A stretch of DNA of 64,000 bases from Ancylobacter koreensis (lineage in GTDB: Bacteria; Pseudomonadota; Alphaproteobacteria; Rhizobiales; Xanthobacteraceae): positions 124,001-188,000 of the forward strand of contig NZ_JALKCG010000004.1 of NCBI RefSeq assembly GCF_023016525.1. Reading direction: 5' to 3'. The translations under genes and the position numbers were made by a program. The notes under the pieces are model-generated. The model was not told the DNA's origin. It saw nothing but the letters and a program-made list of their open reading frames with translations, and ran no database searches. Every line of letters starts with the position of its first letter. Positions within the stretch are counted from its first letter, which is position 1. Below, in pieces: positions 27,035-33,068 of the stretch.

Positions 27035-27439
27035 TCAGGCGGCGCGACCGTCATAGGCGACAGGGGAAAGCGTGGCCGGGTCGATGCCCGACAGCGTGCG
27101 CACATTGATCGCGACGGTCGGCGTGCCGTCCGGGGCCGGTGCCCGGGCGAAGCTCTCCACGCCGCAATCGGCGCAGAACATGTGGCTGATGACGTGACGG
27201 TTGAAGCGGTATTCGCGCAGTTTCGCCTCGCCCGCTTCCAGTTCGAAGGCGCTTTCCGGCGCGAAGGCGAGGATCAGCCCCTTGCTGGCGCAGAGCGAGC
27301 AGTTGCAGGCGATGGTATGCGACAGGTCGAGGCTGACCGTGTAGCGCACGGCGCCGCAATGGCAGCCGCCGGAAAGCCGGCGGGCGGCGCCGCCGGAAAT
27401 GTCGTCCGCATGGCTGTCGCCCGTGTGGGTGTCGGACAT
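27035..27439 (-). CDS. GFA family protein (glutathione-dependent formaldehyde-activating-like, CENP-V fold)
   Basis: A 134-residue zinc protein of the GFA/CENP-V family. The metal cysteines appear in the expected order: GGCHCGAVRY, ACNCSLCASKG and FCADCGVESFARAP. Relatives include Gfa, which was proposed to speed S-hydroxymethylglutathione formation, but most members have no proven substrate. The gene lies just beyond the terminator that ends the nrdJ-linked transcript and is followed by 154 bases before the acetyltransferase start. Confidence 0.9.
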   Translation of the reverse strand: MSDTHTGDSHADDISGGAARRLSGGCHCGAVRYTVSLDLSHTIACNCSLCASKGLILAFAPESAFELEAGEAKLREYRFNRHVISHMFCADCGVESFARAPAPDGTPTVAINVRTLSGIDPATLSPVAYDGRAA

Positions 27440-27490: not shown

Positions 27491-27516
27491 AAAACGGCCG
27501 GGCAAGCCCGGCCGTT
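27491..27516 (-). terminator. Strong hairpin, probable original nrdJ terminator
   Basis: On the minus strand AACGGCCGGG-cttg-CCCGGCCGTT is a perfect 10-bp stem with a four-base loop followed by TTC. It lies 24 bases beyond the stop codon of the displaced nrdJ 3'-end copy (27541), the position expected for the native nrdJ terminator. It now closes the transcript that includes the two inserted genes. Confidence 0.8.
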
Positions 27517-27540
27517 CTGCTGTTCTATCCTATCAGGCGC

Positions 27541-27648
27541 TCACGAGCACCCCGTCGTCGATCCGCAGGTCTCGCACTTCAGGCAGGTGCCGTTGCGCAC
27601 CATGGTGAAGTTCTGGCACTCGGGGCAGGCCTCGCCTTCATAGCCCTT
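27541..27648 (-). pseudogene. Displaced 3'-end copy of nrdJ (last 35 codons and stop)
   Basis: Read on the minus strand this segment encodes [11 protein letters not shown] ... GSTTGCS and a TGA, exactly the final 35 residues of NrdJ. It has no start and is cut off from the rest of the gene by two unrelated genes. It differs from the working nrdJ end by two silent base changes and in the last serine codon (TCG here, AGC in the intact gene). The repeat 27547-27650 matches 28722-28825 over 104 bp. It is best read as the ancestral gene end left behind after an insertion. Confidence 0.93.
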
Positions 27649-27650
27649 GG
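27547..27650. repeat. 104-bp direct repeat, distal copy
   Basis: It matches 28722-28825 with two mismatches (C/T at 27556 and G/A at 27591, both silent in the NrdJ frame). Identity ends abruptly at both sides: after CCTTGG here comes ggcagtg, while in the other copy it is cgcgagc. Confidence 0.95.
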
Positions 27651-27660
27651 GGCAGTGCTC

Positions 27661-28059
27661 TCAGGCCACCTCAGGGAACTCTTGAAGAGTAACTCGATCC
27701 TCTCGCGCTATAGCTCCAGCTTGTTCATATGCGCGACCGCGCTCATTGTTCTTAAATAAATCGTCACCTAATTCACGTGCAGCCTTTTGAATTACGTTCA
27801 TCAACGAAAGAAATTCTTTGGAATTATTGTGGTTGATCGAGCGGTGCCGAATATAGAAATTTCGGAAGCCCTTTATCTTGAAGCCGATTAGCTGGCGATC
27901 ATCCATGTCGAGGATGAGTGTGAGTAGATCGTCGACACGCCTGTATACGCATGGAACGTCCTTCCGGACGTACTCCACGCTATCTGCTTCTTCGAAATAG
28001 ATTGCGGTAGGCACGTACGCGTTCATTTGCCAATGATCACCCAATTTGTCGTATACCAT
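27661..28059 (-). CDS. Unknown protein B of the nrdJ-linked insertion
   Basis: A protein of 132 residues that I do not recognise. ATG 28059 is preferred because GTGAGG lies six bases upstream; a GTG at 28071, overlapping the stop of gene A, would add four residues. The N-terminal half (YVPTAIYFEEADSVEYVRKD) leads to a compact strand-like stretch VDDLLTLILDMDDRQLIGFKIKG-FRNFY, which faintly resembles small DUF2283-type folds, but I would not assign it. The C-terminal half is charged and helical (NVIQKAARELGDDLFKNNERGRAYEQ). There is no signal peptide or membrane segment. It lies 8 bases behind gene A and 10 bases before the displaced nrdJ end. Codon use is AT-rich. A partner (for example antitoxin) role would be speculation. 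Confidence 0.7.
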   Translation of the reverse strand: MVYDKLGDHWQMNAYVPTAIYFEEADSVEYVRKDVPCVYRRVDDLLTLILDMDDRQLIGFKIKGFRNFYIRHRSINHNNSKEFLSLMNVIQKAARELGDDLFKNNERGRAYEQAGAIAREDRVTLQEFPEVA

Positions 28060-28067
28060 GGCAAACC

Positions 28068-28700
28068 TCACCAGAGGCGTTTGCGATATCGGTCTCTATG
28101 TTGAACCGGCAGATGAGGGTCTGTCGGATCCGCCTCCACAACTTCCCAGTGTGTCACCACACCTTTCGTTGCGCCTTCTCCGAACCCACATAGGCCGATA
28201 TCGGATTTTACCGGATGATCAAGGCGGACATAAGTTACGAAAACTAGATCAGCGGGAAACGGCTGAGGCTTTGCGACGCACACCATATCGTGTGTCGCCC
28301 GAAAATAAAGCGCAGGTTTGGAAACATACGCCACGACGTTGAAGCCGGTGTCATCGTCCGCCATCGGACGCTTTAGACCCCGGAAGCAAGCCGTGGCATC
28401 ACGAAGCGTAACCAACCTTTTCCCGCTGAATTCCCCCGTCCATCGGGAGATATTGGGAACTGGCGGTGTTTCGCCAAAAATCATGCTCCACGCGTCAAGA
28501 ATTGGCTGACGACGCCGCGCCGCGAGCGATTTCTCGATGTCCCGCTTGGAAAAGCGATAGAAAACCGATTGATCGGGGGCTAAGGCCCATCTCGCGAGAA
28601 CGAGCGACCGGAAATCAAGCCACTCCGACGGCGGACTGGCTCCGCCGTCGATGACTGAGAAGCGCTTCGTTGGCATGGATTCCATCGGGCGCTCTACCAT
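28068..28700 (-). CDS. Unknown protein A of the nrdJ-linked insertion
   Basis: A protein of 210 residues without a family I recognise. ATG 28700 has GGGGA four bases upstream and starts only 15 bases behind the nrdJ stop, so it should be transcribed with nrdJ. Segments of note are FRSLVLARWALAPDQSVFYRFSKRDIEKSLAARRRQ (helical, basic), SRWTGEFSGKRLVTLRDATACF, a beta-rich middle (GFNVVAYVSKPALYFRATHDMVCV) and a sharply defined C-terminus VTHWEVVEADPTDPHLPV-x4-RYRKRLW rich in His, Asp and Arg. The tail could hold an active site, but this is a guess. There is no transmembrane helix or signal. It is followed by gene B in the same unit. Confidence 0.72.
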   Translation of the reverse strand: MVERPMESMPTKRFSVIDGGASPPSEWLDFRSLVLARWALAPDQSVFYRFSKRDIEKSLAARRRQPILDAWSMIFGETPPVPNISRWTGEFSGKRLVTLRDATACFRGLKRPMADDDTGFNVVAYVSKPALYFRATHDMVCVAKPQPFPADLVFVTYVRLDHPVKSDIGLCGFGEGATKGVVTHWEVVEADPTDPHLPVQHRDRYRKRLW

Positions 28701-28715
28701 TATTCCCCACTATCC

Positions 28716-31700
28716 TCAGCTGCACCCCGTTGTCGATCCGCAGGTCTCGCACTTCAGGCAGGTGCCATTGCGCACCATGGTGAAGTTCTGGCACTCGGGG
28801 CAGGCCTCGCCTTCATAGCCCTTGGCGCGAGCGATGGCGCGGGCTTCGGCCTTGCTCGGGCCGGCCGCCGCCGCCACGGGGGTTGGGGCGGCCCAGGGCA
28901 GGGCATCCGTGGAGCCGAGCGTCTCCTCGTCCTCTTCCGCCTCCGGATCGGCCTTCAGGGCGGTGGCGCCCTGTATGCCGCCGCGCAGCGCGGTGACGTT
29001 GGAGGCGGCGGTCGTCACCGTCGCGCCGGCCGGCACCACCATCAGCCCGACCGAACGGCCGCGCGTCAGGCCCTTGGAGACCATGCGCGAGGCCGGGGTG
29101 GCGGGCGACGCCTTGCCCTCGTCGACGCCCTTGCCGAGCGCGTCGAAATTCGATTCCGACAGGTCGACATGGCCGAGGTCGTTGCGGCCGAGATAGGAGA
29201 CGGCGAGCTCGCGGAAGATGTAGTCGAGGATCGACGTCGCGTATTTGATGGTGTCGTTGCCCTGCACCGGGCCGGCCGGCTCGAAGCGGGTGAAGGTGAA
29301 GGCGTCGACATACTCCTCCAGCGGCACGCCGTACTGCAGGCCGAGCGACACCGAGATGGCGAAGTTGTTGATGAAGGAGCGCAGCGCCGCGCCTTCCTTG
29401 TGCATGTCGATGAAGATCTCGCCGAGGCGGCCGTCATCGTATTCGCCGGTGCGCAGATACACCTTGTGGCCGCCGACCACCGCCTTCTGGGTATAGCCCT
29501 TGCGGCGGTCCGGCATCTTCTCGCGGCTGTGCACCTCGACGACGCGCTCGATGATCTTCTCGACCACCTTCTCCACCACATGGGCGGTGCGGGCGGCGGC
29601 GGGCTTCTCCAGCAGCGCCTCGACGCCGTCCTCCTCGTCCTCCTCGTCGGAGACGAGCTGCGAGTTCAGCGGCTGCGAGAGCTTGGAGCCGTCGCGATAG
29701 AGCGCGTTGGCCTTGAGCGCGAGGCGCCAGGAGAGCAGGTAGGCCTCCTTGCAGTCCTCGACCGTCGCCTCGTTCGGCATGTTGATGGTCTTGGAGATCG
29801 CGCCCGAGAGGAAGGGCTGCGCCGCCGCCATCATCAATATGTGGCTGGTGACCGACAGGAACCGCTTGCCGATGCGCCCGCAGGGATTGGCGCAGTCGAA
29901 GACGGGATAGTGCTCGGTCTTCAGGAAGGGCGCGCCCTCCAGCGTCATCGCACCGCAGACATGGATGTTCGCGGCCTCGACGTCCTTGCGGGAGAAGCCG
30001 AGGAAGGCGAGCAGGTCGAAGGCGGGGTCGGCCAGCTTGTCGGCGGGCACGCCGAGCTTGGCCAGCGCCTCGTCGCCGAGCGTCCAGCGGTTGAACACGA
30101 ACTTGACGTCGAAGGCCGCCTTCACGCTGGCGTCGATCTTCGCCAGCATGGCGTCGTCGAAGCCCTTGGTGCGCAGCGTCGAATGGTTGATCGCCGGCGC
30201 CTGGGTGATCGAGCCGTGGCCGACCGCATAGGCCTCGATCTCGGCGATCTGGCTCTCGGAATAGCCGAGTGTGCGCAGCGCCTCCGGCACGGCGCGGTTG
30301 ATGATCTTGAAATAGCCGCCGCCGGCCAGCTTCTTGAACTTCACCAGCGCGAAGTCGGGCTCGATGCCGGTCGTGTCGCAGTCCATGACGAGGCCGATCG
30401 TGCCGGTGGGCGCGAGCAGCGTGGTCTGGGCGTTGCGGTAGCCGTGCGCCTCGCCGAGCGCGAGCGCCTGGTCCCAGGTCGCCTTGGCGCGCTCGACGAG
30501 GATCGGGTGGGGCACCTTGGCGTGGTCGAGCGGCACCGGGTTGGTGTTCAGCCCCTCATAGCCGCCCTTCTCGCCATAGGCGGCGCGGCGGTGGTTGCGC
30601 ATCACGCGCAGCATGTGGGTCGCGTTCGGCTTGTATTCGGGGAAGGGGCCGAGCTCCTTGGCCATCTCGGCCGAGGTGGCGTAGGCGACGCCGGTCATGA
30701 TGGCGGTGAGCGCGCCGCAATAGGCGCGGCCCGCGTCGGAGTCGTAGGGGATGCCCGAGGTCATCAGCAGGCCGCCGATATTGGCGTAGCCGAGGCCAAG
30801 CGTGCGGTACTCGTAGGAGAGCTTGGCGATTTCCTTGGAGGGGAACTGCGCCATCAGGATCGAGATTTCGAGCACCACGGTCCACAGGCGGCAGGCATGC
30901 TCGTAGCTCTCGACGTCGAACGAGCCGTCGGCGTTGCGGAACTGCAGCAGGTTCAGCGAGGCGAGATTGCACGCCGTGTCGTCGAGGAACATGTATTCCG
31001 AGCACGGGTTGGAGGCGCGGATCGGGCCGCCCGCCGGGCTCGTGTGCCAGTCGTTGATGGTGGTGTGGAACTGGATGCCGGGATCGGCGCAGGCCCAGGC
31101 GGCGTGGCCGATCTTCTCCCAAAGCTCGGCGGCCTTGAGGGTCTTGGTCACCTTGCCGGTGGTGCGCGAGGTCAGGTTCCAGTCAGCGTCGGCCTGCACC
31201 GCGTTGAGGAAGGCGTCGTCGACGCGCACCGAATTGTTCGAGTTCTGGCCGGAGACGGTCAGATACGCCTCCGAATCCCAGTCGGTATCGTAGATCGGGA
31301 ATTCGATGTCGGTGTAGCCCTGCTTGGCGAACTGCACGACGCGGCGGATGTAGTTCTCCGGCACCTGCGCCTTCTTGGCGGCGCGGATCTCGCGCTTCAG
31401 GGCGGGGTTCTTTTCCGGGTCGTAGCAGTCGTCGCCTTCGCCCTCGCAGTTCACGCAGGCCTTCATCACGGCCTTCATGTGCTTGGCGACGGTCTTGGAG
31501 CCGGTGACGAGCGCGGCGACCTTCTGCTCTTCCTTCACCTTCCAGTCGACATAGGTCTCGATGTCGGGATGGTCGACGTCGACCACCACCATCTTGGCGG
31601 CGCGGCGGGTGGTGCCGCCCGACTTGATGGCGCCGGCGGCGCGGTCGCCGATCTTGAGGAAGGACATGAGGCCGGAGGAGCGCCCGCCGCCGGAGAGCTT

Positions 31701-32429
31701 CTCGCCCTCGCCGCGCAGGGCGGAGAAGTTGGAGCCGGTGCCCGAGCCATACTTGAACAGGCGCGCCTCGCGCACCCACAGGTCCATGATGCCGCCCTCG
31801 TTCACCAGATCGTCGGAGACCGACTGGATGAAGCAGGCATGCGGCTGGGGATGCTCATAGGAGGTCTTGGAGCGCGTCAGCTTGCCGGTCGCGTAGTCGA
31901 CATAGAAATGGCCCTGGCTCGGGCCGTCGATGCCATAGGCCCAGTGCAGGCCGGTGTTGAACCACTGCGGCGAGTTGGGCGCGGCCATCTGCATGGCCAG
32001 CATGTAGCGGTGCTCGTCGAAGAAGGCCTGCGCGTCCTCCTCCGAATCGAAATAGCCGCCCTTCCAGCCCCAATAGGTCCAGGTGCCGGCGAGGCGGTCG
32101 AAGACCTGGCGGGAATCGGTCTCGCCGACGATCCGCTCCTTCTCGGGGAGGGCGGCGAGCGCCTTCTCGTCGGCGGCGCCGCGCCACAGGAAGGAGGGGA
32201 CGGTCTCTTCCTCGACCTTCTTCAGACGGGCGGGGACGCCGGCCTTGCGGAAATATTTCTGCGCGATGATGTCGGTCGCGACCTGGGAGAAGTGCTCCGG
32301 CACGTCGATGCCTTCCGCGCGGAACACGATGGATCCGTCGGGATTGCGAATCTCGCTCGTCGCCTTGCGGAACGCGATGTCCGCATAGGGAGAACGGCCG
32401 GCCTTCGTGTAACGGCGCTCGATGCGCAT
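28716..32429 (-). CDS. nrdJ: Adenosylcobalamin-dependent (class II) ribonucleotide reductase
   Basis: A 1237-residue class II RNR that makes deoxyribonucleotides using coenzyme B12 and needs no oxygen. Core motifs include [44 protein letters not shown], the substrate-site [22 protein letters not shown] and the thiyl-loop region with [30 protein letters not shown] domain follows (about 1000-1110), and a C-terminal redox tail with [22 protein letters not shown] completes the protein. ATG 32429 ([11 protein letters not shown]) is the usual start. The last 35 codons are one of two copies flanking the insertion. I saw no cobalamin riboswitch motif in the leader. Confidence 0.97.
28722..28825. repeat. 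104-bp direct repeat, copy forming the end of intact nrdJ
   Basis: It is the in-gene copy of the repeat whose displaced partner is 27547-27650. It encodes the C-terminal cysteine-rich redox tail of NrdJ. Homologous recombination between the two copies would delete the cargo and leave an intact nrdJ next to its original terminator. Confidence 0.95.
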
Positions 32430-33068
32430 TTTCGTCGTCCCCGGTTCGTGGTGGACCTGTCCCCAGTCCACTCAGCGACATTCAAAGCTCCGGACCCTGC
32501 GTCCGCATACCTGTCGGTCCCGGTTGGCGAACGGCTTCACAGCCTGCCCGCTCCGGTGTGTTTTTGGCACGCACAAACGCTTCGCCGGAACCAATCTCCG
32601 GCGAGGGAGCCCGCTTCAATCTGGATGAGTCGGCCGCAAAACCTACGCTGCCGCCGACGGGGCCAAACTGGCCGACTCCCTTATTCGCGTCAACCTTCCG
32701 TCACAAACTCTAGTGTGGAGGAGGTGAAAAATATCTAAATGTAGATGGTGTCGGGATCGCGCTCTTTCCAGAGCCGAAGCCCGAATTCCGCGGGGATTCG
32801 CGTCCCGAGTCCAGCCCGAATAAATGGCGGGGCAGAAGGCGGAGAAAAGCGGGGATTGTTGAGGTCCCGCAATTTCGGTTTGCACATGTGGGTCGAGCAA
32901 CTTCCCCGGAGTGCAGGGCGCCCGCTCCGAACCTGCCCCATCGGCATCGTCCGGCCGGCAATCCCATCCTTGCGCAAAGGCACGCGAAAGGCCGGGCGGC
33001 GGCCTTGGCGGGCGGGCGCGCGGGCGTATATCTGGCGCAACGCACCCCTTCGCATGCAAGGCAGTCCC
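32430..33068. other. Divergent intergenic region between nrdJ and the MFS gene
   Basis: The 639 bases hold no convincing gene. Near 32732-32745 there is a small AT-rich inverted repeat, ATCTA-aatg-TAGAT, in the middle of the region, where promoters for both directions could lie. On the minus strand TTGACG near 32695 is a possible -35 for nrdJ without a good -10. I searched by eye for a B12-box and an NrdR-type box in the nrdJ leader and saw neither. Confidence 0.4.

Follow-up and report, generated by a model that had tools for sequence, protein, structure and literature searches.

The position behind nrdJ as a probable landing site for small foreign operons in Ancylobacter koreensis and related Alphaproteobacteria

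How does a pair of foreign genes come to lie between a ribonucleotide reductase gene and a second copy of that gene's own end? The question is raised by the window analysed here, a stretch of 64,000 nucleotides (nt) from Ancylobacter koreensis (contig NZ_JALKCG010000004.1, positions 124,001 to 188,000), in which nrdJ, the gene for a class II ribonucleotide reductase, is followed by two small open reading frames (ORFs), c1 and c2, and then by a headless copy of the nrdJ 3′ end (hereafter the tail). The duplication had been noticed in a first-pass annotation of the stretch. We suggest that the position directly behind nrdJ is probably a recurrent landing site for small foreign operons, many of them resembling defence or toxin-antitoxin systems, one that is used without an integrase and probably by homologous recombination.

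A duplicated nrdJ tail around two foreign genes

The repeat search placed the two nrdJ tails at 27540-27653 and 28715-28828, a 107-bp match of 97% identity (BLAST expectation value, E, about 2e-48). Direct repeats of at least 60 nt fall into three families across the window, one of which is this pair; the other two look like pairs of paralogous genes. A chance repeat, or a paralogous repeat elsewhere in the window, was rejected by the same window-wide search. The first-pass annotation had described 104-bp repeats (27547-27650 and 28722-28825) with two silent mismatches. These intervals were recovered, but a third silent difference had been missed: the tails differ in three codons, all silently, and among them is that of the last serine (AGC in the intact gene, TCG in the remnant). 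Its reading of one copy as a headless remnant encoding the last 35 NrdJ residues and the stop, and of the other as the end of the intact gene (28716-32471), stands: the remnant has no nrdJ sequence upstream of it. It begins 12 nt past the stop of c2. The insert between the tails measures about 1.07 kb and holds two overlapping ORFs, both on the nrdJ strand. As the annotation also had it, no integrase gene is present between the repeats, where c1 and c2 are the only genes and neither has a family match. A search for tyrosine integrases (PF00589) found none on the window's contig, the five in the genome lying on contigs C11, C12 and C19.

What has been duplicated is the code for the six-cysteine zinc finger at the NrdJ C-terminus. 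According to the available extracts of two papers, such a zinc-binding C-terminal domain with six cysteines carries electrons to the active site of a class II reductase and matters for turnover (PMC5704485), and a zinc finger is present in 71% of dimeric class II enzymes (PMC9669993). Any insertion at the nrdJ tail would presumably have to leave a complete zinc finger on nrdJ.

The 3′ part of nrdJ was matched in all 30 same-genus genomes searched (genomes are numbered G000 onwards, G000 being that of the window). In eight of the 29 others (G002, G005, G006, G009, G013, G014, G020 and G026) the GGCCGGG hairpin that adjoins the window's remnant stands directly behind nrdJ, and a near version of it does so in two more (G021 and G025). 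The tail and flank of G013 align with the remnant and flank of the window at 91% identity over 164 nt. The remnant and its hairpin therefore have the form of an uninterrupted nrdJ end. The first-pass annotation had expected relatives without the insert to show empty sites with the terminator beside nrdJ, and this is what G013, G020, G005 and others show. It had called the hairpin strong and terminator-like; it does adjoin the remnant and has a folding energy of about −22 kcal/mol, but its T run is short (4 T) and it is not among the terminators listed by a simple scan of the window.

The composition of the insert is foreign. The G+C content of c1-c2 is 52.4%, below that of all 630 segments of the same size sampled every 100 bp over the 64 kb (overall 68.6%), and third-position G+C is 0.52-0.58 in the cargo against 0.93 in nrdJ. 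No family was found for c1 in Pfam, PADLOC, NCBIfam or PHROG, nor for c2 in Pfam, PADLOC or NCBIfam, PHROG giving two matches only (E 0.16 and 0.2); in these scans neither gene showed similarity to a known anti-phage or toxin-antitoxin system. Among 198 family genomes, c1 matched its own genome and, weakly and partially, one other (E 5e-4), and among 385 class genomes c2 matched only itself. Nor did homologues of c1 and c2 turn up in plasmids or, in searches that reach close relatives only, in species genomes and viral contigs. AlphaFold models built from single sequences could not be used, mean pLDDT being 38 (c2) and 32 (c1). We regard it as an even guess that c1 and c2 form an undescribed defence or toxin-antitoxin pair, the whole basis being their address, their foreign composition and their two-gene overlap.

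Two features of the cargo edges may be recorded here. A weak σ70-like match (9/12) on the minus strand at 28736-28709 spans the nrdJ stop just upstream of c1. At 27641-27663 the c2 TGA stop shares its reading frame with the remnant, and readthrough would append the NrdJ zinc finger to c2, giving a product that would resemble the finger-bearing peptidases of other genomes described below; the chance of such an in-frame arrangement is one in three.

Table 1. Features of the nrdJ locus in window coordinates
Feature	Coordinates	Strand	Remarks
nrdJ, class II (B12-dependent) ribonucleotide reductase, intact	28716..32471	minus	Pfam Ribonuc_red_2_N, Ribonuc_red_lgC, TSCPD
3′ tail of intact nrdJ	28716..28823	minus	last 35 codons and stop; six-cysteine zinc-finger domain; last Ser codon AGC
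c1, cargo ORF	28068..28700	minus	210 aa; orphan; start 15 nt past nrdJ stop
c2, cargo ORF	27661..28071	minus	136 aa; GTG start; orphan; 4-nt overlap with c1
Headless nrdJ tail remnant	27541..27648	minus	35 codons and stop; last Ser codon TCG
GC-rich hairpin followed by TTTT, terminator-like	27491..27516	minus	native nrdJ 3′ flank; same hairpin directly behind nrdJ in 8/29 same-genus relatives
Native downstream gene, GFA family	27035..27439	minus	right edge of the site

Second tails and cargo behind nrdJ in other genomes

Second tails recur behind nrdJ well outside the window. Counts are of genomes, one per species, and not of independent events; genomes with at least two tail matches were picked by eye from the result tables at E 1e-3, so that weaker copies are missed. 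The nrdJ tail was matched in 340 of 391 genomes of the window's family, 19 of which had more than one match, and in 13 of the 340 (G000, G030, G049, G060, G064, G072, G110, G210, G221, G272, G308, G313 and G349) a second tail-like match follows on the same strand, no more than 3 kb downstream. At the DNA level eight of the 13 pairs are repeats of at least 77% identity (G000, G030, G049, G060, G072, G210, G308 and G313). The second copy in G313 is the C-terminus of an IrrE-like protein, and in the five genomes outside these eight it is the C-terminus of an ORF that is IrrE-like by eye. In G210 ORFs separate three successive tails, and units may stack in this manner. A search of the order with a ten-row tail profile matched 366 of 397 genomes, 19 of them from the window's family; among the 347 outside it, 17 had more than one match and six a second copy within about 4 kb (G673, G821, G911, G986, G1078 and G1128), G821 being counted on protein similarity only and the G911 pair being read across the ends of its single contig.

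Several second matches do not qualify as scars. In the family, those of G133, G142, G240, G328 and G358 are remote, lie on another contig or belong to a further nrdJ, and that of G125 is at a contig end. In the order, the tails of G460, G810, G989, G1013 and G1117 are on separate contigs, mostly at their ends, and G916, G947, G1030, G1054 and G1094 have the second match on another contig. G980, likewise excluded, has four tail matches over three contigs (L144-L146) with a 401-bp exact repeat behind the tail, a pattern that may be an amplification, a larger island at nrdJ or a contig overlap, which were not told apart.

Two control genes show nothing comparable. The end of the malic-enzyme gene was matched in 125 of 198 family genomes and that of accC in 172 of 179 genomes, and a nearby second copy was found in none (0/125 and 0/172). 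The further control matches (nine of the 125 genomes for malic enzyme, 11 of the 172 for accC) are all on another contig or hundreds of kb away, and G121 has two extra accC matches 1.9 Mb off. Fisher's test gives P 0.0003 for 13/340 against 0/297 and 0.008 for the eight DNA repeats, values that serve as a guide only, the genomes being related and the controls sharing genomes.

The genes found behind nrdJ vary between genomes. Twenty proteins were scanned with Pfam (4/20 without a family) and seven with PADLOC; they were chosen by eye and make up a list, not an enrichment test. The list includes DUF4160-DUF2442 pairs in G060, G210 and G142, which belong to three genera and whose proteins are 65-83% identical (the G210 and G142 pairs being assigned by identity to G060), BrnT with a helix-turn-helix protein in G049, a SLATT protein with a ThsB-type TIR protein in G072, another ThsB-type TIR protein in G308, a NACHT protein in G313, a Drt2-like (DRT2) reverse transcriptase in G1030, and IrrE-like peptidases (Peptidase_M78) in G012, G313, G673 and G911. 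Within the genus, other genes stand directly behind nrdJ with no second tail in four genomes: the peptidase in G012, a Pycsar cyclase in G003 (PADLOC PycC match, E 2e-229), and in G015 and G023 a protein without a Pfam family (two proteins in all). The cargo genomes G142, G003, G012 and G1030 have no confirmed scar. Sites with other cargo at the same place in relatives, which the first-pass annotation had anticipated, thus exist, in part with the same kind of scar, and nrdJ offers what characterises a hotspot, a fixed core-gene address with varying defence cargo in relatives. The first ORF on the nrdJ strand begins 15 nt past the stop in the window, 6-20 nt past it in G210, G313, G221 and G673, and 56-189 nt past it in G049, G060, G072, G1128 and G308; in G911 a transposase-like ORF on the opposite strand comes first.

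Some of the IrrE-like ORFs directly behind nrdJ bear a C-terminal NrdJ-like zinc finger of their own. This is the case in G313 and G673 (loci L131 and L141; Pfam Peptidase_M78) and, for ORFs judged IrrE-like by eye, in G221, G349, G272, G110, G064 and G821 (L129, L132, L133, L130, L134 and L158). The finger of the G313 ORF has 79% DNA identity to the local nrdJ tail. Such fingers may be captured tails or mimics of NrdJ. Separately, in six same-genus genomes (G010, G016, G018, G024, G027 and G029; L041, L051, L048, L046, L054 and L047) two kinds of similar block recur shortly past the nrdJ stop; they resemble insertion-sequence ends, and the spot may attract other elements too.

Origin of the tails and route of entry

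A headless remnant that arose by local copying and drifted afterwards would be expected to carry mostly changes that alter amino acids; the opposite is seen. Changed residues among differing codons number 0/3 in the window (G000), 0/6 in G049, 1/6 in G210, 2/6 in G072, 2/12 in G1128 and 9/30 in G673, and each of these six pairs lies below the simulated neutral expectation (P 0.007 or less). The test covered nine loci, the other three being G911, which has no difference in the 28 codons compared and is uninformative, and G313 (7/18) and G221 (10/24), which were set aside since the second tail there belongs to a long ORF expected to be under selection; the test did not extend to G060 and G308 (shifted frames), G986 or G1078. 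The last serine codon is AGC or AGT in 17 and TCG or TCT in 12 of 29 genomes of the genus. The likeliest interpretation of these sequences is that the tail copies diverged as working nrdJ ends in different genomes and that one of them came with the cargo. The first-pass annotation had proposed an integration in which the incoming DNA restores the gene. An origin of one tail in another genome agrees with this, given the silent-only divergence, but the evidence on which tail came in points both ways: the flank and hairpin suggest the remnant as the host's own, yet G020, the nearest in its flanks of the 20 genomes compared, has AGC like the intact copy.

We infer that the joining took place by homologous recombination in the tail rather than by an integrase in trans. 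The cargo would arrive together with the donor's nrdJ 3′ end, the part coding for the zinc finger on which NrdJ turnover depends; the donor and host tails would then recombine, leaving nrdJ with one complete tail and placing the cargo behind its stop (by 15 nt here), where it would be readable from the nrdJ transcript; and the other tail would be stranded as a headless remnant beside the native hairpin. On this model nrdJ, c1 and c2 would be co-transcribed, and the units may still move or excise.

Phages that integrate into protein-coding genes carry the gene's 3′ end in their attP. By analogy, the nrdJ cassettes could be satellites, or remnants of larger islands that lost their integrase, that entered site-specifically, an integrase acting in trans having joined them to an attB located in the nrdJ 3′ end. 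The geometry would be the same, with the gene restored and the displaced end stranded. At 13 loci measured (G000, G049, G060, G072, G210, G221, G308 and G313 in the family; G673, G911, G986, G1078 and G1128 in the order) the repeats end within 7 nt of the stop codon in 12, the exception being G060 at 43 nt beyond, and the 5′ edges of G000, G060, G210 and G308 fall 111-117 nt before the end of the stop. Taken over all 13, however, the distance from the repeat start to the end of the stop is 72-131 nt at 11 loci and 222 nt at two, a span that disfavours one fixed attachment site with a constant core. The integration signature seen by the first-pass annotation is therefore sound in that one repeat completes the gene, but the variable starts do not suit a single fixed site as in tRNA islands. 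Integration in trans is also made unlikely by the integrase searches: besides the window's contig, PF00589 was absent within 100 kb of nrdJ in G911 and G673 and from the nrdJ contig of G210 (a search that covered tyrosine integrases, not serine recombinases), and no integrase was recognised by eye among the downstream ORFs that were listed. Nor do vectors that match the tail favour it, two of nine plasmid records being annotated as reductase and seven unannotated at the match, while all three phage records are annotated as reductase.

Viral sequences hold a further pattern. Among 34 viral loci with the tail, a frame of at least 700 aa ends in it in 21, and two are cut by the locus end (L203 and L213, the latter a viral contig beginning inside the tail). 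In the other 11 (L184, L186, L191-L196 and L210-L212) the NrdJ zinc finger and its stop close a short frame, of 91-201 aa, that lacks most of a reductase. Such frames might represent a C-terminal module that can be transplanted, or one piece of a split reductase.

Two other routes were considered. In one, the cargo was acquired horizontally in the ordinary way, through homologous recombination in the flanking core genes, with the tail copy an accidental by-product and nrdJ nothing special. The core-gene-flanked defence hotspots of Pseudomonas aeruginosa, which in the available text are not obviously tied to one kind of mobile element (PMC10250203), and the occupied nrdJ sites without a scar would suit it, but several genera and families show the scar at this one gene end while the two control genes have none nearby, and we consider this account improbable. 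The other, which we hold to be decidedly doubtful, is insertion with a long target duplication of the restriction-modification (RM) kind, in which the host's own tail is duplicated and no donor tail takes part. Variable repeats of about 100 bp around units without a known mobile element fit RM systems as the available extract describes them (PMC3874152), and G030 shows that a naked tail duplication can occur. Against this, most differences between the copies are silent despite one of them being headless, and their final codons, AGC in one and TCG in the other, are variants that each occur commonly in the genus. Such silent divergence disfavours duplication of the local target as the chief source of the scars, although G030 may be an instance of it. 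An assembly artefact or a chance repeat is scarcely credible. Short-read assemblies do break at repeats, and the draft relatives G460, G810, G989 and G1013 have contig ends at or near the tail; but an artefact is unlikely in the window because its two tails differ in sequence and sit inside a 289-kb contig, and the pattern recurs on long contigs, for example in G673 (4.8 Mb) and G313 (536 kb). The probabilities we attach to these accounts and to homologous recombination in the tail overlap, and the accounts are not mutually exclusive.

Several observations weigh against recurrent landing by recombination of imported nrdJ tails. Among the 30 same-genus genomes, searched whole and also over about 2-6 kb behind nrdJ, only that of the window has a second tail, and the sites of G012, G003, G015, G023 and G1030 are occupied without a visible scar. 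Conversely, G986 and G1078 are scarred and have no clear cargo ORF on the nrdJ strand, and G030 (L126, G030:C126) has an exact 86-bp tandem duplication of the tail without cargo, which looks like local slippage, independent of insertion, or is possibly a first step. The start points of the repeats vary between loci. Selection is possible on the remnants of G210 and G049, which lie in ORFs with a start codon and could be translated, and on other remnants that lie in short open frames. The nrdJ gene is mosaic among relatives, the best relative changing from segment to segment (20 of 29 compared), and the donor can therefore not be traced. Short-frame second copies of the control genes on other contigs (malic enzyme in G004; accC in G126, G156 and G180) could hide a neighbouring copy across a contig break. 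Finally, c1 and c2 have no relatives, so that they give no evidence of their own movement.

A broader extension of landing by tail recombination is put forward tentatively, as something short of probable. The zinc-finger end of nrdJ may be a portable docking sequence, with cassettes made up of a small defence or toxin-antitoxin operon and a tail circulating among related alphaproteobacteria, presumably Hyphomicrobiales. Such cassettes would insert by tail recombination without an integrase of their own, leave NrdJ working, borrow its transcription and be able to stack.

Comparison with known systems

Among the matches listed in a literature search, judged by title and the start of the abstract, no paper deals with nrdJ as an insertion or defence site. 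The nrdJ 3′ end offers an address at which to seek new one- or two-gene defence systems, and c1-c2, if the docking-sequence account is right, would represent a two-gene system of immune or toxin-antitoxin type that is new and was recognised from its address alone. The scars also make the route of entry testable, the mainly silent differences of the stranded tail indicating that the cargo came with a donor's gene end.

Islands that integrate by an integrase into protein-coding genes (for example dusA, or icd with e14) keep the target whole and leave a repeat on its far side. The nrdJ locus shares with them its direct repeats, one of which completes the target gene, but the insert has no tyrosine integrase in or near it and the repeats have no fixed length. 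Integrons stack small gene cassettes behind one site, and G210, with two cargoes separated by tails, is reminiscent of this; unlike integron cassettes, the units at nrdJ have neither integrase nor attC, and the shared sequence is the end of a coding gene.

RM units, as described in the available extracts of three papers (PMC3874152, PMC1643837, PMC4978471), insert with long, variable target duplications of about 100 bp and move unlinked to a mobile element. The likeness lies in a small selfish or defence unit that has no known mobile element and is flanked by variable direct repeats of about 100 bp, and in a long repeat at the occupied site that is single in relatives without the insert. In contrast to RM units so described, the repeats at nrdJ come from one gene end, nrdJ stays whole and no restriction-modification genes were identified in the cargo. 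The tail copies moreover are different alleles with mainly silent differences, one of which seems imported rather than duplicated on the spot.

A parallel in position may be drawn with the P. aeruginosa hotspots cDHS1/2, where defence systems likewise gather at a fixed core-gene address with no obvious marks of mobile elements (PMC10250203). In the available text of that study its authors leave open how core hotspots are built, suggesting transfer by recombination in the flanks, and name the gathering of defence genes at core addresses without such marks as a future question, on which the nrdJ scars bear. Compared with cDHS1/2 as portrayed there, many nrdJ units comprise no more than two genes, set immediately behind a single gene, and in several cases a stranded tail remains as a scar that can be read.

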